Part shown: positions 1 through 6,682 of the stretch, piece after piece
Numbering within the stretch: the stretch's first letter is position 1
Layout: each line of letters starts with the position of its first letter
Assembly: GCA_030590275.1 (NCBI GenBank)
Contig: JAUUYV010000071.1
Coordinates: forward strand, 1-7,686
DNA: 7,686 nucleotides
Reading direction: 5' to 3'
Source of the DNA: Porticoccaceae bacterium
Lineage (GTDB): Bacteria; Pseudomonadota; Gammaproteobacteria; Pseudomonadales; Porticoccaceae
Notes under the pieces: generated by a model
Seen by the model: the letters and a program-made list of their open reading frames with translations, nothing else
Database searches by the model: none
What the model was told of the DNA's origin: nothing
Made by a program: the position numbers and the translations under genes

Positions 1-281
1 ATGCAGGCAGGGGTAAAGAGCTTTTTGACGGCATCTGCTCCACCTGTCACGGTCGCAAAGGCGATGGTTATTTGGCAGGAGGTACGGGCACGGCTATTGG
101 CAAGTCGGGCACGATAAATATCGCTTCCGACGGTTTTCTACGTGCGACCATAAAAGATGGGCGATCAAATACACGTATGCTGGGGTTTTCTGGCCCCACA
201 GGTATGGCCGATTTAAGTGATCAGGAAATCGACGATATTATTATTTACTTACATCTACTAGCCAGCGAGGAGGGTTCCTAA
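1..281 (+). CDS. C-terminal fragment of a class I-type cytochrome c (partial, 5' end outside window)
   Basis: The reading frame is open from base 3 to a TAA at 279-281 and has no start inside the window, so the gene begins upstream. Seen directly: a heme c attachment motif CSTCH at bases 36-50, preceded by GKELFDGI and followed by GRKGDG, the usual surroundings of the heme in small class I cytochromes. Further on, RMLGF (Met codon 177-179) resembles the xMPxF distal-ligand motif; a second Met at 204-206 (GMADLSDQEI) is an alternative ligand. The protein ends in a helix with IIIYLHLL, the typical C-terminal helix. Role: a periplasmic electron carrier. Its stop lies one base before the molybdoenzyme start, so it is very probably co-transcribed and may exchange electrons with that enzyme. 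Only one heme motif is visible; more domains could lie upstream. It does not look like NapB, which carries two CxxCH motifs and a different sequence. Confidence 0.9.
   Translation, partial: AGRGKELFDGICSTCHGRKGDGYLAGGTGTAIGKSGTINIASDGFLRATIKDGRSNTRMLGFSGPTGMADLSDQEIDDIIIYLHLLASEEGS
267..274 (+). promoter_or_regulatory. Strong Shine-Dalgarno site for the NapA-like gene
   Basis: The sequence GAGGAGGG lies inside the last codons of the cytochrome gene and ends 8 bases before the ATG at 283. This favours ATG 283 over the in-frame ATG at 298. Both starts would keep the twin-arginine motif, so the choice changes only five N-terminal residues. Confidence 0.75.
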
Positions 282-282
282 G

Positions 283-3006
283 ATGAAACGAATCAAGATG
301 GATCGACGGGACTTTATAAAAAGTAGTGCCTTCATCGCCAGTACAGCGACGGGTGCCAGTTTGATGGTAGGCGCAAATCCTGAGCTTGAAGCGGCTAGCA
401 GTGGTACGGATGACACCAACACAGTGAGTAGAACCACGGCGTTGGCCCAATGCCCTTACTGTGGTGTGGGTTGTGGCACAGTGATACAAGCTGAAAATGG
501 CAAGATTGTCTCCATGCGCCCCGACAAAGAGCACCCCACTAATTACGGGTTACAGTGCATTAAAGGGTTGACTGCTGCCGAGCCTATCTATGTCGATCGC
601 ATGGAGGGGGATTCTTACGTACGTAAAGACGTTTGGGCCGAATGGCAAAAGCCGGGGCACGGCGATCTGGAATATATTAGTAAAACCAAAGGTTCTTTTG
701 ACGAAGAGCACTTTGTGCGTGTGTCCTATGAGAAGGCCAGTGAAATGGTTGATCACAAGATTGCCCATCTCGCCAAAAAGTACACGGGCAATTCGATAGG
801 GCTGTACGGCTCAGGCCAACTGACCATGGAAGGCCAGTATATGGAAAACCTGTTTATGAAAGGAGTGCTAGGCTCCAACACCATTGAGGCAAATGCTCGC
901 ATGTGCATGACCTCGGCGGTAACGGGCTACTTTAAAATTCTTGGTTCAGATACACCGCCACTGGCCTATGAAGATATTGAACTGAGCGACATGATCATGC
1001 ATTTTGGCCACAACGCCCGTGAGGCTCACCCTATCATTTTCTGGCGAGCGGCTGACCATAAAAAGAGCAAAGACATTCCCACGGTTGTCGTCGATCCGCG
1101 CTACACAGGCACCGCGAAAGGTTATGAAGATATCAACGCTGACAACTCTGTGCATGTACCTATTTTAAACGGGGATATCAGCTTTCTTAACGCCCTGGCT
1201 CACGTGCTTTTGAAGGATCACCCCGATGTGATTGACTGGGCTTTCCTGAGAGAGCATGTCACCGGTTGGCAGGAATATATTGATGCCGTAACCGATGAAT
1301 ACAGTCCCGAACAGGTACAGGATCGTATGGGGGGGCCGAATCATGAGGTGCCGCCGGAACTCATTCGTCGAGTCGCCGGTATGTTTGCCGACGCCACACG
1401 TAAACGTCTGGCACGCTCCAAAGGTCTTCAGGGCGCCGCCGGGGGTGCAGTAGAGGGTGGTTACGGTGGCGTGATTATTATGTGGGGTATCGGTTACAAC
1501 CAGTCTATCCATGGTCAGCACAATGTTATTTCCGTCATTAACTTACTAACACTCACCGGCAACCTGGCGAAGCCCGGTTGTGGACCATTCTCCATGACTG
1601 GGCAACCCAATGCCATGGGTGAACGCTTCACCGGAGGGCTAACAGGCCGTTTACCGTTTAACCAACCTTTAACTAATGACGAACATCGTGCCCATATCGC
1701 CAAACAATGGCGCGTACCGGAGCGTAACCTCGAGACTGCTATGAAAGCGCAGAACCCGGGTATGGCCGTGGGCATGATGGAGCGGGCCCTAAAGGGTGAA
1801 GTAAAGGCGATGTTTCTGGTTTACGCCACCCACGTCGATTTGCCGGATCAGGATAATCTTATTCGGCCAGCTCTAAATAAGACCTTTAATGTAGTGCAGG
1901 AAATCTATCGTCACGCACCGAACAACCTCTATGCCGATGTCATTTTTCCAGCGGCGAGCTGGGGTGAAGTGAATGGTGTTTATATTAGTTCCGAGCGGCG
2001 CCTAAATATTGTCGAGCAGGCCGTCATGCCGCCTCCCGGTTGCCGTCCCGACCTCGATATGGTGATCGATAAGGCCAAGGGTATCGGTAAATTACTAGGC
2101 ATGGATATGGACAATACTCTGCCCTATAAGCGGGGCGAGAACGGATTTTACGATGCCGAGGAAATTCTCCGGGATATTATTCGAGCCTCAGCGGGTACGG
2201 ATACAGACCTTACAGGTATTCTTGATGTGGAGCAGGTTGATGGTCTGTCTCCCTATGACCAGCTGAAGAAAATACGCGGTATTCAGTGGCCTGCACCGAC
2301 CTATGCTATTGCTAAAGCCGGTGGCACCAAGCGGCGATTTATGATGCAGGAAGGTGACTGGAAGACCCGACCCTACGGTTTTTTCCGCACTAAGGATGGT
2401 AAAGTTAATCTTAAAATGTGCCATCAGGATTACAGTGACCGCAAAGCAATTACTGAAAAGCTCATGGCTTTTGGTACAAAAGAGGGTCATTACACAATCG
2501 ACCATATGGATCTACTTAAAGAAGCTCGGGATAAAGGCTTAACCCCTGATTTGCCCGATGAGGAATATCGCGGCAAAATCTGGTCCGAGGTCCCCGATGA
2601 CAAATTCCCCTATTGGCTAGGCCTGGGTGTGGTTTATGAACATTTCCACACCGCAAAATCTATGCGTAGTCCGACCACCCAAAGGCTGGTGCCAGAGATG
2701 TATGTAGAAATGCATCCCGAGGATGCTAAGGATCTAGGCATCAAAGATGGCGATAAACTAAACCTGATTACTCGCCGTGGTCAATTTCAGGCTAAAGCTC
2801 AGGTGGGTACTAAAAGCCTGGTTCGTCCCGCTCGCAACAGTGTACCCCGCGGCTATATGTTTAGTCCCTGGAATTTATCCGTCGCCGATAGCGCCGATCC
2901 GAAAAAAAACAAATGGCTGGTCAATAAAACCTCTAGCCGGGTTTGGGATATTGTCTCTGGCCAGGTCGACTTCAAAAAACTGGCAATACGTATTGAAAAA
3001 GCTTGA
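283..3006 (+). CDS. napA: NapA-like periplasmic Mo-bisPGD oxidoreductase, Tat-exported (nitrate reductase family)
   Basis: Catalytic subunit of the cluster: a molybdopterin oxidoreductase expected to act in the periplasm. Seen: a twin-arginine signal (MDRRDFIK at residues 6-13, then a weakly hydrophobic Ala/Ser/Thr stretch to about residue 37); a [4Fe-4S] site with Cys57, Cys60, Cys64 and Cys92; Lys95 in CIKG, the usual electron-relay lysine; and ARMCMTSAV with Cys208 as the likely Mo ligand, matching ARHCMASAV of NapA. TGQPNAMGER (439-448) matches the active-site loop of NapA/NasA, with Arg448 in the conserved Arg position as in NasA. SSERR follows YADVIFPAASWGE. Residues about 780-905 form the C-terminal cofactor-binding domain, ending DFKKLAIRIE as in NapA. 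At 907 residues it is longer than typical NapA (about 830). Ends in TGA-TAA. Nitrate reduction is the default inference. No napB or napD is seen nearby, so the substrate is uncertain. Confidence 0.88.
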   Translation: MKRIKMDRRDFIKSSAFIASTATGASLMVGANPELEAASSGTDDTNTVSRTTALAQCPYCGVGCGTVIQAENGKIVSMRPDKEHPTNYGLQCIKGLTAAEPIYVDRMEGDSYVRKDVWAEWQKPGHGDLEYISKTKGSFDEEHFVRVSYEKASEMVDHKIAHLAKKYTGNSIGLYGSGQLTMEGQYMENLFMKGVLGSNTIEANARMCMTSAVTGYFKILGSDTPPLAYEDIELSDMIMHFGHNAREAHPIIFWRAADHKKSKDIPTVVVDPRYTGTAKGYEDINADNSVHVPILNGDISFLNALAHVLLKDHPDVIDWAFLREHVTGWQEYIDAVTDEYSPEQVQDRMGGPNHEVPPELIRRVAGMFADATRKRLARSKGLQGAAGGAVEGGYGGVIIMWGIGYNQSIHGQHNVISVINLLTLTGNLAKPGCGPFSMTGQPNAMGERFTGGLTGRLPFNQPLTNDEHRAHIAKQWRVPERNLETAMKAQNPGMAVGMMERALKGEVKAMFLVYATHVDLPDQDNLIRPALNKTFNVVQEIYRHAPNNLYADVIFPAASWGEVNGVYISSERRLNIVEQAVMPPPGCRPDLDMVIDKAKGIGKLLGMDMDNTLPYKRGENGFYDAEEILRDIIRASAGTDTDLTGILDVEQVDGLSPYDQLKKIRGIQWPAPTYAIAKAGGTKRRFMMQEGDWKTRPYGFFRTKDGKVNLKMCHQDYSDRKAITEKLMAFGTKEGHYTIDHMDLLKEARDKGLTPDLPDEEYRGKIWSEVPDDKFPYWLGLGVVYEHFHTAKSMRSPTTQRLVPEMYVEMHPEDAKDLGIKDGDKLNLITRRGQFQAKAQVGTKSLVRPARNSVPRGYMFSPWNLSVADSADPKKNKWLVNKTSSRVWDIVSGQVDFKKLAIRIEKA

Positions 3007-3048
3007 TAATGGGCGGGCCCTGATAGCCGATAATACTGGTAAAAATCG

Positions 3049-3624
3049 CTGAAACGACGAACCTTTATCAAGTCTGTGGGCCTCGGAGCAGCCGCGACTG
3101 GTCTGGATATTTCCGCCTCGGCGGCATCACCGCCGCCTCGCTATTTACGGCCACCCGGTGCACTCGCTGAAGACGCTTTCGAAAGCACCTGCATTCGCTG
3201 TGGTCAGTGTGGGGAGGTTTGTCCAAACCGTTGCATCAAGTTTTTTGGCCTGGAAAACGGCACCACCTCTTACGGTACACCTTATATTATTCCCCGCGAC
3301 CAGGCCTGCATTCTCTGCATGAAATGTGGCGATGTCTGTCCAACCGATGCCATCGAACCAATTGAACGCCTGATGGAACCGATTCTTAAACATGTCAGCA
3401 TGGGTAAGGCTCTGGTCGACGAAAACCTCTGTCTTTCTTATCAGGGCAAGACCTGCGGGGTCTGTTATCGGGCCTGCCCCTTGCAAGATGTAGCGATACG
3501 TACTGGTTTGCTGGAGCAGCCACACGTACTGGAAGATTGTGTAGGTTGCGGCCTGTGTGAGCGCTCCTGTATTCAGCTACCCCAGGCGATACGTATTATT
3601 CCCGATTACACTCACACATCATGA
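3049..3624 (+). CDS. napG: NapG-type ferredoxin with four [4Fe-4S] motifs, Tat-exported; probable CTG start
   Basis: Periplasmic iron-sulfur protein expected to pass electrons between NapH and the molybdoenzyme. Starting at CTG 3049 gives 191 residues beginning (M)KRRTFIKSVG, a near-perfect Tat motif. Upstream, the frame is closed by TAA at 3040-3042, and CTG is the only start-like codon before GTG 3076, which would remove the twin arginines. Four ferredoxin motifs are visible: Cys48/51/54/58, Cys87/90/93/97, Cys128/136/139/143 (the Cx7CxxCxxxCP form typical of NapG and NapF) and Cys164/167/170/174. The RPPGAL box (35-40) before cluster 1 is a family hallmark. The gene lies 42 bases after the NapA-like stop and overlaps napH by ATGA. 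No strong Shine-Dalgarno site is seen. It is a paralogue of the protein at 4688-5299. Family membership is secure; the exact start is less so. Confidence 0.87.
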   Translation: MKRRTFIKSVGLGAAATGLDISASAASPPPRYLRPPGALAEDAFESTCIRCGQCGEVCPNRCIKFFGLENGTTSYGTPYIIPRDQACILCMKCGDVCPTDAIEPIERLMEPILKHVSMGKALVDENLCLSYQGKTCGVCYRACPLQDVAIRTGLLEQPHVLEDCVGCGLCERSCIQLPQAIRIIPDYTHTS

Positions 3625-4682
3625 ATAAGATTGTTGTGAACGAGACCGGCACAAACAAGGCTGCGCACAGGCCCTTTTTCCTCTGGAAACATCTCAACAA
3701 ACTACGTTGGCTAAGCCTCACAATCGTATTTGCGATGTTAGTACTGATACCATTTCTCCATGTCTATCAAACCTACATTTCAGCACACACTTACGATTTA
3801 CTCAGTCCCCGTGAAAAACAAATCTACGATACGATGGAATGGATTAGCAGCCCTTTTGTCAGTGATCCGGAAGAACAGCTCGATGGACTTAAAGGCAACA
3901 CCTGGTCTGGTACCTTTGGCAATATTCAATTAAGCGACCCCCTTGCCGTACTCGGACAAATCGTTAGTAGCAGGGCATTTTACTGGCCATTTATTTTAAC
4001 GGCGCTTATCCCAATAATCCTGACGATAATATTCGGCCGCTTTTTTTGTGGCTGGATCTGCCCTGCAACCTTTCTTTATGAGCTAAATAGCAACCTCGGC
4101 GTACTGCTGCGCAAATCTGGTCTGCACATTGCCAATAAACGTTTTGATCGCCGTCTTAAATACCTGGTGCTGGCCATTGGGCTTACAATTGCCGTAATAA
4201 CAGGCTCTGTAGCCTTTGCCGCTATTTATCCTCCGGCAATTATTGGGCGAGAAATTTATTACGCTATTGCCCTCGGTGGTTTCGGCTCTGGTGTCGTATT
4301 CTTTTTGCTGACACTATTCTTTGATTTACTACTGACACGACGGGGCTTTTGTCGCTATCTCTGTCCAGGTGGTGCGCTCTATTCACTGCTCGGCCGCTTT
4401 CGACTATTGCGAATTAAACGTATTGTCGAAACTTGCAATGACTGTGCAAAATGTACGGCGGTTTGCGAGTTTGGCCTCGACCCTCTACACGACCAGTTTG
4501 GTCAGGAATGTAACAACTGTACCGCCTGTATCGCTGTTTGCCCAACGGAAGCGATGACCTTTTATTTTAGCCCACAGGATATTGCCAGGCAGGGGCCGGG
4601 GCATCTGGGCCGCAAATACAGGCAGCAAAACACGCTCCTAAATCGAGAAAAAGAAACCCCGGAACCGGTAGGGGAAAAGTAA
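3621..4682 (+). CDS. napH: NapH-type membrane iron-sulfur protein (quinol dehydrogenase subunit)
   Basis: Integral membrane partner of NapG; in nap systems NapGH oxidises quinol and delivers electrons to the periplasm. Seen in 353 residues: four membrane helices near 28-48, 119-139, 180-202 and 214-238; two CxxxCP motifs at the cytoplasmic side, FFCGWICP (Cys143, Cys147) and FCRYLCP (Cys244, Cys248), both characteristic of NapH; and two cytoplasmic [4Fe-4S] sites, Cys272/275/278/282 (the last in CEFGLDP) and Cys297/300/303/307. The segment SGTFGNIQLSDPLAVL matches the E. coli NapH region before helix 2. Compared with E. coli NapH (about 287 residues), the first periplasmic loop is longer (about 49-118) and there is a basic, charged C-terminal tail after about 316. 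Start ATG 3621 overlaps the napG stop as ATGA, suggesting translational coupling; no separate ribosome-binding site is evident. Confidence 0.93.
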   Translation: MNKIVVNETGTNKAAHRPFFLWKHLNKLRWLSLTIVFAMLVLIPFLHVYQTYISAHTYDLLSPREKQIYDTMEWISSPFVSDPEEQLDGLKGNTWSGTFGNIQLSDPLAVLGQIVSSRAFYWPFILTALIPIILTIIFGRFFCGWICPATFLYELNSNLGVLLRKSGLHIANKRFDRRLKYLVLAIGLTIAVITGSVAFAAIYPPAIIGREIYYAIALGGFGSGVVFFLLTLFFDLLLTRRGFCRYLCPGGALYSLLGRFRLLRIKRIVETCNDCAKCTAVCEFGLDPLHDQFGQECNNCTACIAVCPTEAMTFYFSPQDIARQGPGHLGRKYRQQNTLLNREKETPEPVGEK

Positions 4683-4687
4683 TTAGT

Positions 4688-5299
4688 ATGCGCCGGCGTA
4701 GTGTCCTCCAGTGGCTGGTATATTCGACGGGCGTAGTCGCTGCTGGGGCAATACCCTATGCCCTCAGCCGTTTGTTAGCGCCAGCCGAAAGTTTACTTGC
4801 CCGGCGGCATCTAAGGCCGCCTGGTGCCTTAAAAGATGATGCAGAGTTTGTCTCTGCCTGTATTGGCTGTGGGCTTTGCGGTGAGATTTGCCCGCCGCGC
4901 TGTATTCAATTTCATCAGCGTGATGGGGGTACACAGGTGAATACGCCCTATATCAACCCCGAAGTAAAAGCTTGCACTTTATGCGGCAAATGCACGGAGG
5001 TTTGCCCCACCGATGCTTTAATCCCCATCGAACGGGAAAAAGTCGATATGGGTGTTGCCCAGATAGATCGCAGCGCTTGCTATCCCTGGGTCGACCGGGG
5101 TATCTGTGGTGCCTGCGTGAGCATTTGTCCCCTCGGTGAACGGGCGATTAGCTTCAAGCAGTGGAATCAGTACCAGCCAGTGATTCAGGAAGCTTGTGTC
5201 GGCTGTGGCTTATGTGTTGAAGTATGCCCCCATCCTAGTTTACCGATTCGTATTGTGAAGCGCTCACAGGGTAGCGTTATGCGGCATACTGTTTCATGA
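4688..5299 (+). CDS. napG: Second NapG-type ferredoxin with four [4Fe-4S] motifs, Tat-like N-terminus
   Basis: A second periplasm-directed electron-transfer ferredoxin. Seen in 203 residues: MRRRSVLQWL, a Tat-type N-terminus lacking the usual Phe, followed by a hydrophobic stretch (9-30) more marked than in the first NapG, so it could be a membrane anchor rather than a cleaved signal. LRPPGAL (42-48) precedes four Cys groups: 58/61/64/68, 96/99/102/106, 131/140/143/147 (Cx8CxxCxxxCP, one residue longer than the usual spacing) and 170/173/176/180. The start ATG 4688 follows the NapH stop by five bases, with AGGGGA at 4670-4675 as a plausible ribosome-binding site. The RPPGAL box and the cluster layout show it is a paralogue of the 3049-3624 product, though substantially diverged. 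One copy may serve NapH and the other the enzyme or cytochrome; that division is inference. Confidence 0.87.
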   Translation: MRRRSVLQWLVYSTGVVAAGAIPYALSRLLAPAESLLARRHLRPPGALKDDAEFVSACIGCGLCGEICPPRCIQFHQRDGGTQVNTPYINPEVKACTLCGKCTEVCPTDALIPIEREKVDMGVAQIDRSACYPWVDRGICGACVSICPLGERAISFKQWNQYQPVIQEACVGCGLCVEVCPHPSLPIRIVKRSQGSVMRHTVS

Positions 5300-5325
5300 T
5301 GAGAAAACTCACGAGAAAAATATAG
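5296..5325 (+). other. Nine-codon mini-ORF bridging two genes
   Basis: An ATG at 5296 overlaps the TGA of the preceding ferredoxin gene (ATGA) and opens a nine-codon frame, MMRKLTRKI, closed by TAG at 5323-5325. The last G of that stop is the first base of the GTG start of the next gene. This stop/start chain could carry ribosomes from the ferredoxin gene to the weak GTG start. It may equally be chance, since no good Shine-Dalgarno site precedes the ATG. Confidence 0.3.
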
Positions 5326-5978
5326 TGAAGTACGCCAATTTATCGAAAGTAAAAAAAGGAAATTCGAAACAGCTTAAGCTTATTGCTCTGTTGAGCTGTT
5401 CTTTTATCGCTTTTTTTATCCCCCCGGCTGACGCTCACCATGTACTCGGTCGACCCGCTTATAGCTTGAACGAAGACTCCAATACGCCACCCAGCATGAA
5501 TATCGAAACGCTAATTGGTGATTTTTTTGTTACTGCCATGGTTTTTCCTGCCTTTCCGAAACCAGAAGAAGCTGGACGAATTAATTTGTACATCACCCGT
5601 CTCGGTACTAAACAGCCATTGAATTCTGACATCGAGTTCTCCGTACGTAATAACGGCTGGTTTAGCCCCATCTGGTTTGACAATAAATCCGAACAGCTGG
5701 GTGCCCAGGTTCTGGATGACAACGTCTATCGACAGGGCTTTAGCTTTCACCAGCGTGGCGATTATATTATTAGCGCCTCATTTTGGGATAAAGGCGAACA
5801 CTACATTATTGACTTTCCCCTGCGCGTTGGTGAGCCGCTGCTGATAGGCCCACTGGGTATTATCGTCACCCTGGTACTGCTGTTACTTATAGTGGTGACG
5901 GTCGTGCAACGCAAAAAAATACTGCGTAATAAATCCCGGGATGAAATATTGCTCCGCTCCAATTCCTTATCGTCTTAG
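5325..5978 (+). CDS. Unnamed periplasmic protein with signal peptide, probable Ig-like domain and C-terminal membrane anchor
   Basis: I do not recognise a named function. Seen in 217 residues: a long basic N-terminus (1-18), a hydrophobic signal core (19-33) and a probable signal peptidase I site after Ala-Asp-Ala (35-37), giving a mature protein that begins His38-His39 followed by VLGRPAYSLNED. A periplasmic domain of about 130 residues looks mainly beta. Its segments FFVTAMVFPAFPKPEEAG and HQRGDYIISASFWDKG resemble the edges of FixH/YtkA-type Ig-like domains. A transmembrane helix at about 171-194 is followed by a basic cytoplasmic tail (QRKKILRNK), so the topology is periplasmic domain out, tail in. 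There is no Cys in the mature domain. The start is GTG 5325, the only plausible start before the signal core. Its place between NapG- and NapF-type genes suggests an assembly or accessory role in the same system, possibly metal handling; that is inference. Confidence 0.82.
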   Translation: MKYANLSKVKKGNSKQLKLIALLSCSFIAFFIPPADAHHVLGRPAYSLNEDSNTPPSMNIETLIGDFFVTAMVFPAFPKPEEAGRINLYITRLGTKQPLNSDIEFSVRNNGWFSPIWFDNKSEQLGAQVLDDNVYRQGFSFHQRGDYIISASFWDKGEHYIIDFPLRVGEPLLIGPLGIIVTLVLLLLIVVTVVQRKKILRNKSRDEILLRSNSLSS

Positions 5979-6019
5979 TGTTGATTAGCTACTTTTAACT
6001 AGATAATGGCCAATACCTA

Positions 6020-6682
6020 ATGGACAGACGAGGTTTTTTTAAATCAGTATTTCGCAATACCACACAGGAAGTGGTTAAGCACGCTGATGTAAAAGTAAAA
6101 AAAGCGGCACAGCGCTGGATCCGTCCACCTTACGCTATCAACGAACTCGATTTCTTGCTGGCCTGTACCCGCTGCGGCGACTGCCTGCCTGCCTGTCCTC
6201 ATCAAGTAATTTTCCCTTTATCGGCCAGAGTTGGCGTTAAAGCGATCGGCACTCCGGCACTGGACTTAACCAATAAAGGCTGTCATCTGTGTGCCGACTG
6301 GCCCTGTGTTCAGGCCTGTGGGGAAGGGGCCTTACGCTTGCCTGAGCTAATTTCTAATAAGCCTGCATCATCAGAACAGCTATTGCTTTCGGAACAAGAT
6401 CTTAGTGAGGACTCGGATCGACAGGAATCCGCTGTGCTACCGTTACCAAAGCTGGCAAGCGCCAGCATCGATACCCAAAACTGCTTACCTTATAGCGGAC
6501 CGGAGTGCGGCGCCTGTGATACCAGTTGCCCAGTGCCTGGAGCTCTGGTTTGGGACCTGGAAAAGCCAGTCATTAATACTGCGATCTGTGTGGGCTGCGG
6601 TCTCTGTCGGCAGGCATGTATTATCGAGCCGAGAGCCGTCATAGTTGTAGCCAGAGTAGATAGGGATGACCTCGGAAGTTAA
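6020..6682 (+). CDS. napF: NapF-type cytoplasmic ferredoxin with four [4Fe-4S] motifs
   Basis: Iron-sulfur protein like NapF, which in nap systems stays in the cytoplasm and contacts NapA before export. Seen in 220 residues: MDRRGFFKSVF at the N-terminus, which looks like a Tat motif but is followed by polar, charged sequence (12-31) with no hydrophobic core, as in E. coli NapF (SRRG start, also not exported). IRPPYAINELDFL precedes CTRCGDCLPACP (Cys49/52/55/59). Further groups are Cys88/91/96/100 (CxxCx4CxxxC, a longer spacing), Cys155/163/166/170 and Cys190/193/196/200. It is longer than E. coli NapF (about 164 residues) mainly because of an acidic, Ser/Leu-rich linker at about 111-148 between groups two and three. 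It follows the previous gene by 41 bases with no clear ribosome-binding site and is the last gene of the cluster in this window. NapG is the main alternative assignment, but the absence of a signal core argues against it. Confidence 0.82.
   Translation: MDRRGFFKSVFRNTTQEVVKHADVKVKKAAQRWIRPPYAINELDFLLACTRCGDCLPACPHQVIFPLSARVGVKAIGTPALDLTNKGCHLCADWPCVQACGEGALRLPELISNKPASSEQLLLSEQDLSEDSDRQESAVLPLPKLASASIDTQNCLPYSGPECGACDTSCPVPGALVWDLEKPVINTAICVGCGLCRQACIIEPRAVIVVARVDRDDLGS

Follow-up and report, generated by a model that had tools for sequence, protein, structure and literature searches.

Results

Gene content of the locus

The window, meaning the entire 7,686-nucleotide stretch of Porticoccaceae DNA analysed here, begins at the first base of its 7686-base contig, and genes located 5' of the cytochrome gene lie outside the sequence. 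Between positions 1 and 6682 it carries seven genes, all on the plus strand and in the order that the initial annotation had given, followed by a convergent porin-like gene (Table 1). Intergenic gaps of 1–42 bases, or a short overlap, are found throughout the cluster and make a single transcription unit likely. The porin-like gene finds matches in just two of the 80 related loci described below (L068 and L069), and is therefore not counted as part of the operon. As first annotated, no napB, napD or napC gene is present in the window, since its proteins match none of these three families. The NapG- and NapH-like proteins themselves all score below the NCBIfam cut-offs of the respective equivalog models.

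Table 1. Genes in the window and the evidence for their assignment.
Feature	Position	Strand	Evidence
Diheme cytochrome c, C-terminal half	3..281	+	PF00034 35.3 bits; one CXXCH (CSTCH)
NapA-like molybdopterin reductase, 907 aa	283..3006	+	PF04879, PF00384 and PF01568 over Pfam cut-offs; tree; residue table
NapG-like 4Fe-4S ferredoxin 1	3049..3624	+	NF007012 134.4 bits, cut-off 269; Tat motif KRRTFIK; Cys motifs
NapH-like membrane 4Fe-4S protein, 353 aa	3621..4682	+	NF007013 146.9 bits, cut-off 234; Fer4_5 46.5 bits
NapG-like ferredoxin 2	4688..5299	+	NF007012 93.5 bits, cut-off 269; Tat motif MRRRS; Cys motifs
Unnamed protein	5325..5978	+	Signal-peptide-like N-terminus, His-His, Ig-like domain, C-terminal membrane helix
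NapF-like ferredoxin	6020..6682	+	NapG model 99.1 bits, NapF model 65.4 bits, both below cut-off
Porin-like outer-membrane barrel protein, convergent	7685 to 6798	-	Weak Alginate_exp match, 26.8 bits

At its conserved start, the first NapG-like gene carries no ATG, GTG or TTG codon. The window reads CTG AAA CGA CGA there (3049–3060), three related loci (L001, L002 and L003) read GTG AAR CGR CGR, and the KRR(T/D)F Tat motif that follows is common to all. Either CTG would serve as the start codon, or this base may be a sequence error.

The molybdoenzyme forms a separate family

The enzyme belongs to the DMSO reductase superfamily, with Fe4S4, molybdopterin and dinucleotide-binding domains over the Pfam cut-offs, a Tat-type signal, an N-terminal 4Fe-4S motif, the molybdenum ligand Cys208, and Arg448. 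The Tat signal is of the RRDFIK type and its RR is invariant across the alignment, unlike the cytoplasmic NasA and NasC. Against both canonical NapA models the enzyme stays below the cut-off (TIGR01706, 319.9 versus 930.55; NF010055, 338.2 versus 904), the former score being a third of what is required. The predicted structure, with a mean pLDDT of 62.4 and several active-site stretches below 50, was used for the fold only; NapA, formate dehydrogenase and arsenite oxidase share the top rank among its matches.

A scan of one genome per species returned 235 stretches encoding a relative, from which the best 80 (76–92% identity) were retained. Relatives are 69–92% identical to the window enzyme and occur in Gamma- and Alphaproteobacteria, the nearest ones (91–93%) being those of L001 (genome G001) and L003 (genome G002). 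Carriers make up 24 of 369 genomes in a Gammaproteobacteria sample (75–84% identity; among them two partial matches, one split over two contigs), where a NasA-like protein comes next, aligned over part of its length at 42%. A Pseudomonadota sample contains 11 carriers in 398 genomes (69–79%), followed by matches at 34–37%, and the phage and plasmid collections yielded only matches below 60%. The 71 aligned proteins, namely the window enzyme and those of 70 of the 80 loci after an ORF filter had removed ten, share a lowest pairwise identity of 74%, with 390 of 907 columns invariant. By comparison, the aligned identity of the window enzyme is 29–34% to six NapA, 34% to two NasA/NasC and 29% to FdhF, and tblastn gives about 27–29% to plasmid-borne NapA and about 28–30% to NasA-like proteins. 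Of at least 120 homologues, those that bear a name go under molybdopterin(-dependent) oxidoreductase, ferredoxin-nitrate reductase, anaerobic selenocysteine-containing dehydrogenase or hypothetical protein. Among the titles and abstract openings listed from the open-access literature, none describes the family, which is no proof of novelty.

In a maximum-likelihood tree of 19 of the 71 family proteins and 17 others, a single branch, 3.36 changes per column long and supported at 100/100, separates the family from 8 NapA, 5 NasA/NasC, 3 further NasA-like proteins and FdhF; family unity is recovered in 100% of 200 bootstrap trees. Rather than nesting inside ordinary NapA, the enzyme thus falls into a clade of its own. 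The tree comes with warnings, including long branches (FdhF, NasC, NasA and others), long branches that meet, and unusual composition in four rows, and the long branches leave the exact sister group of the family unsure. We incline to regard the family as a third branch beside NapA and NasA, a judgement made jointly with the full reading of the operon presented below. A further branch of the tree is formed by L091, L098 and L092; the last of these loci (L092:4314-6518) encodes a 734-residue NasA-like molybdoenzyme (CGYCSTGC) beside a NIR_SIR-type nitrite reductase protein.

Active-site residues

Cys208 (the molybdenum ligand), Met209, Asp223, Arg448, Asn406 and Lys94 are kept in all 71 family proteins and match the rows of NapA, NasA and NasC. 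Arg448 occupies the position of DdNapA Arg354, a possible place of nitrate binding according to the review PMC13223375. The surroundings have changed, since Arg720, Leu722, Trp725 and Ser729 of E. coli NapA (precursor numbers) correspond to Val, Tyr, Phe and Lys in 71/71 proteins. In the window enzyme, Val783 and Phe788 replace Arg720 and Trp725, the latter two being listed as conserved pterin contacts in solved NapAs, and Asp155 and Glu156 as substrate channel residues of NapA, in that same review. Glu195 of E. coli NapA, which follows the conserved Asp, has become Thr throughout the family (71/71), and the Arg of the NapA motif NQHTRG is likewise His in 71/71, as in NasC. The Sec/Cys-His pair that formate dehydrogenases carry at the molybdenum ligand is absent, with Cys-Met found in 71/71. 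Judged from these residues, the active site is of the nitrate-reductase type with a changed pocket.

Conservation of the operon

For 49 of the 80 loci, the sequence covers no less than 0.7 kb on the upstream and 6 kb on the downstream side of the enzyme gene. In 46 of these 49, six core genes, encoding the diheme cytochrome, the enzyme, NapG, NapH, the unnamed protein and NapF, keep this order. The second NapG was recognised in 35/49. A further membrane protein, about 510 residues long and with a weak likeness to NapH, is present in 30/49. Conservation extends to more distant members of the family (71–74%, n = 8), where all five sufficiently long loci retain the order and have the 510-residue protein; in two of the five, the second NapG went unrecognised.

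The three exceptions to the order are L048, where NapF was not found, and two loci of giant sulfur bacteria that deviate more. L026 (Parabeggiatoa) has NapC, the diheme cytochrome and the enzyme only, with NapG-, NapH- and NapF-like genes not nearby, and L079 (Thioploca) has the enzyme only, again with the ferredoxin genes not nearby. NapG- and NapH-like genes are found in 47/49 loci, and we count the two without them nearby against the explanation that we prefer.

The cytochrome and proposed quinol-side partners

The cytochrome at the contig start was initially annotated as a class I-type cytochrome c. This holds, with the correction that the protein is cut at its 5' end. The cluster of cytochromes from related loci has exactly two CXXCH motifs in 62 of 64 members (the others being a truncated one with one motif and a longer one with three), from which it follows that the window encodes the second half of a diheme protein truncated by the contig start. 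Full-length relatives have 227 aa (L001) and 222 aa (L003), the L009 cytochrome contains two class-I cytochrome c stretches, and the best PDB sequence matches of the L001 cytochrome are CcoP subunits of cbb3 oxidases. By sequence, then, the cytochrome is a tandem diheme class-I, CcoP-like protein, diheme like NapB although of another family.

Since CcoP-like cytochromes are of a kind found in oxidases, the direction of electron flow could be the reverse, with the enzyme acting as an oxidase (dehydrogenase) whose substrate would donate electrons, via the diheme cytochrome, to a terminal oxidase. We consider this improbable, given the NapG- and NapH-like genes in 47/49 loci, the linkage of NapC to the enzyme gene in 41/50 genomes, and the missing formate-dehydrogenase Cys/Sec-His pair.

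The linkage of NapC emerged from 50 carrier genomes, of which 46 have a NapC/NirT gene (PF03264). Comparison of coordinates places it on the contig of the enzyme and within 9 kb of the enzyme gene in 41 of the 50; it is missing from G001, G002, G019 and G048. The noted lack of napC is therefore true of the lineage of the window, with none in G001 and G002, and does not carry over to most relatives. L001 and L003, the loci from G001 and G002, also lack the 510-residue protein. NapG/NapH and NapC are the quinol-oxidising modules in studied relatives. In the lineage of the window, NapG and NapH would thus be the sole quinol-oxidising candidates in the operon, and two lineages appear to retain one module each, either NapGH (G001 and G002) or NapC (L026), with the reservation that these genomes may be incomplete.

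NapB and NapD follow canonical NapA

Since the window starts at the contig edge, the upstream region was read in the nearest relatives instead. The 9–10 kb upstream in L001 and L003 contain unrelated genes by ORF reading, and genome-wide searches of G001 and G002 returned no match to NapB, NapC or NapD. Across the 50 carriers, canonical NapA exceeds the TIGR01706 cut-off in 18 genomes. NapB is present in exactly those 18 and in none of the other 32. NapD passes its cut-off in 17, all within the 18, and in 0/32 carriers without NapA. In the eighteenth (G017), napA is truncated by the end of a contig; among the 32, G032 has one sub-threshold match (23.2 bits versus 28). We conclude from this distribution that NapB and NapD follow canonical NapA and not this enzyme. 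A separate search of 15 genomes also detected NapD in G014, the genome of L026, which is outside the 50; we count this against our preferred explanation. The presence of canonical NapA in 18/50 carriers implies that the enzyme is not simply a replacement for it. The genome of L077, Photobacterium profundum, encodes two canonical NapA proteins in addition to this enzyme. In P. profundum SS9, one periplasmic nitrate reductase (PBPRA0854) is raised at high pressure, according to PMC3669370.

The homology to NapA, NapG, NapH and NapF could also be accommodated by an ordinary nap operon with a shuffled order, whose napB and napD would lie elsewhere in the genome. This we regard as very improbable, because the family sits on its own branch (100/100), the TIGR01706 score is a third of the cut-off, and NapB and over-cut-off NapD are absent in 32/32 carriers without NapA, many of these being MAGs and possibly incomplete. 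On the grounds of the tree, the HMM cut-offs and the lack of NapB and NapD genome-wide, we reject it. The distinct electron route that the initial annotation had proposed is supported by the separate clade, by the absence of NapB and of NapD over cut-off in 32 of the 50 carriers, and by a diheme class-I cytochrome instead of NapB.

Genomic context and the substrate

Two loci adjoin nir or nap genes. In L009, MoeA and a MoCF_biosynth protein lie upstream; downstream are MoaA, a NirS-like cytochrome c/d1 protein of 570 aa, a tetrapyrrole methylase and another d1 protein, which is NirF-like. By flanks and full-length similarity, L009 is the only one of the 80 loci with nirS nearby. In L017:713-16555 (Thiotrichaceae), a canonical nap cluster (ferredoxin, NapD, NapA, NapG- and NapH-like) lies just upstream on the opposite strand, back to back with the new cluster, and the contig encodes a D1 protein at a distance of about 11 kb. 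An ABC transporter in L066 is read here as molybdate-type (Pfam gives general domains only), with similar genes in L054. The commonest non-core neighbour clusters are a DUF255 protein (8/80), MoaA (7/80) and Crp/Fnr-type regulators (7/80), others being read as a response regulator, a dehydrogenase and a likely spurious set of minus-strand ORFs. No gene for another acceptor recurs among the non-core clusters, each of which covers at most 8/80 loci with neighbours partly annotated. The large DUF255 (Thioredox_DsbH) gene is found near the cluster in L020, L047, L056, L068, L069, L071, L074 (downstream) and L076 (upstream), its assignment resting on Pfam matches in two members, L074 and L076.

Genome-wide, 20/50 carriers have d1 proteins scoring 369 bits or higher, 14 of these carriers reaching at least 485 bits, the range of the L009 NirS; those of lower score may be NirF or NirN. 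NirK passes its cut-off in 2/50 and NrfA exceeds 600 bits in 2/50, with G002 barely over the cut-off by one weak multihaem match. This leaves 26/50 carriers, G001 and G002 among them, with no d1 protein of at least 369 bits, NirK over cut-off or strong NrfA. NarG passes its cut-off in 4/50, with fragments in two more, and 27 carriers lack both NapA and any match to NarG. Of these 27, 8 have d1 proteins that reach 369 bits and 2 have NirK. Within the Gammaproteobacteria sample, d1 is found in 9/24 carriers and 63/345 non-carriers (one-sided Fisher p 0.027), a weak association from one test uncorrected for kinship. Taken as a whole, the context favours nitrate as the substrate, and is no proof of it.

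Two lines of evidence point to nitrate: the kept Cys-Met, Asp, Arg and Lys, and the loci beside nir (L009) or nap (L017) genes. Room for another oxyanion, and with it for the distinct substrate that the initial annotation thought possible, is left by the changed pocket, by canonical NapA in 18/50 carriers, and by the 26/50 in which none of the three kinds of dissimilatory nitrite reductase searched for was detected. The same chain could therefore serve a different physiological substrate, either another oxyanion or an N- or S-oxide (selenate, chlorate, iodate or an organic oxide, for example); nitrate would then be no more than a side substrate. The long stem of the clade and the replacement of the NapA pterin-pocket residues in 71/71 proteins would fit this alternative, which we nonetheless hold to be rather doubtful, as nitrate reductases have the same conserved Cys-Met, Asp and Arg, two loci adjoin nir or nap genes, and the partly annotated neighbourhoods show no recurring cluster for another acceptor.

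The unnamed and NapF-like proteins

The unnamed protein has an invariant His-His after a signal-peptide-like N-terminus, an Ig-like domain and a C-terminal membrane helix, an arrangement that would anchor it in the membrane with the Ig-like domain in the periplasm. It is probably a periplasmic factor for metal binding or assembly, and the invariant HH makes a copper "histidine brace" at the mature N-terminus a candidate feature. A FixH- or YtkA-like identity was considered and rejected, since searches of Pfam (E 0.001) and NCBIfam (E 0.01) gave no match. In the fold comparison, the protein was set beside the periplasmic copper/iron proteins CrdA and P19/FetP/FtrA, from which it differs by an identity of only 8–15% and by its C-terminal membrane anchor. 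The NapF-like protein has an IRPP motif and a twin Arg, and since it has no hydrophobic stretch, it is probably cytoplasmic.

Discussion

We lean towards a reading in which the molybdenum enzyme of the operon is a periplasmic, Cys-ligated reductase, exported by Tat and most likely converting nitrate to nitrite. Gene content and order, the separation of the family, its residues and the absence of NapB and NapD are what the analysis showed; the export, the direction of electron flow, the partners and the substrate are inferred as follows. At the membrane, the NapH/NapG-type proteins would oxidise quinol, joined in most relatives by the NapC/NirT cytochrome and in many by the second NapH-like membrane protein. 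Electrons would then pass to the tandem diheme class-I cytochrome c, a soluble protein in the position that NapB has elsewhere, and from there to the 4Fe-4S cluster of the enzyme and on to the molybdenum, where nitrate would be reduced to nitrite in the periplasm. We envision that maturation is helped by the cytoplasmic NapF-like protein and other factors, and not by NapD.

Should the enzyme reduce nitrate, surveys based on napA and narG miss a nitrate reductase, one that stands alongside d1 proteins in 8 of the 27 carriers without those genes. Should another substrate prove to be the physiological one, the family stands for an as yet unassigned anaerobic respiration. A bolder and less probable reading would make the family a third, so far unrecognised Nap/Nas-type group of periplasmic molybdenum reductases, widespread in Alpha- and Gammaproteobacteria, respiring an oxyanion other than nitrate through a chain of its own via NapGH and/or NapC and the tandem diheme cytochrome, with NapD-free maturation and a new putative metal-binding assembly protein. 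Our results point to a NapA-like enzyme that works without NapB and NapD, and the lineages that have NapGH without NapC, or NapC without nearby NapGH, provide a natural test of which module feeds it.

Comparison with known systems

Relative to the NapA systems, the enzyme shows about 27–34% identity, a separate clade and different pocket residues. The operon differs from those of NapA by lacking NapB and NapD and by having the diheme class-I cytochrome, the second NapG and the unnamed Ig-like protein, with the second NapH-like protein added in many loci. The nap operon types named in PMC13223375 are napEDABC, napDAGHB, napCMADGH and napAGHBFLD, and the present operon fits none of the four; the napCMADGH type also lacks NapB, and the initially proposed resemblance to the napAGHB(F)LD of Epsilonproteobacteria is partial only. 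With NasA and NasC the family shares the Cys-Met motif and the Arg, and with the NasC row NQxxHG. NasA and NasC have Ser or Gly where the family has Thr, neither having Glu, and the family is set apart from them by its Tat signal, its periplasmic-type partners and its separate clade, at about 28–34% identity. The nearest relatives of the window, in having NapGH without NapC, resemble the nap system of Wolinella succinogenes, which Kern, Mager and Simon reportedly described as NapC-independent in 2007. The Wolinella enzyme is a true NapA and works together with NapB and NapD.
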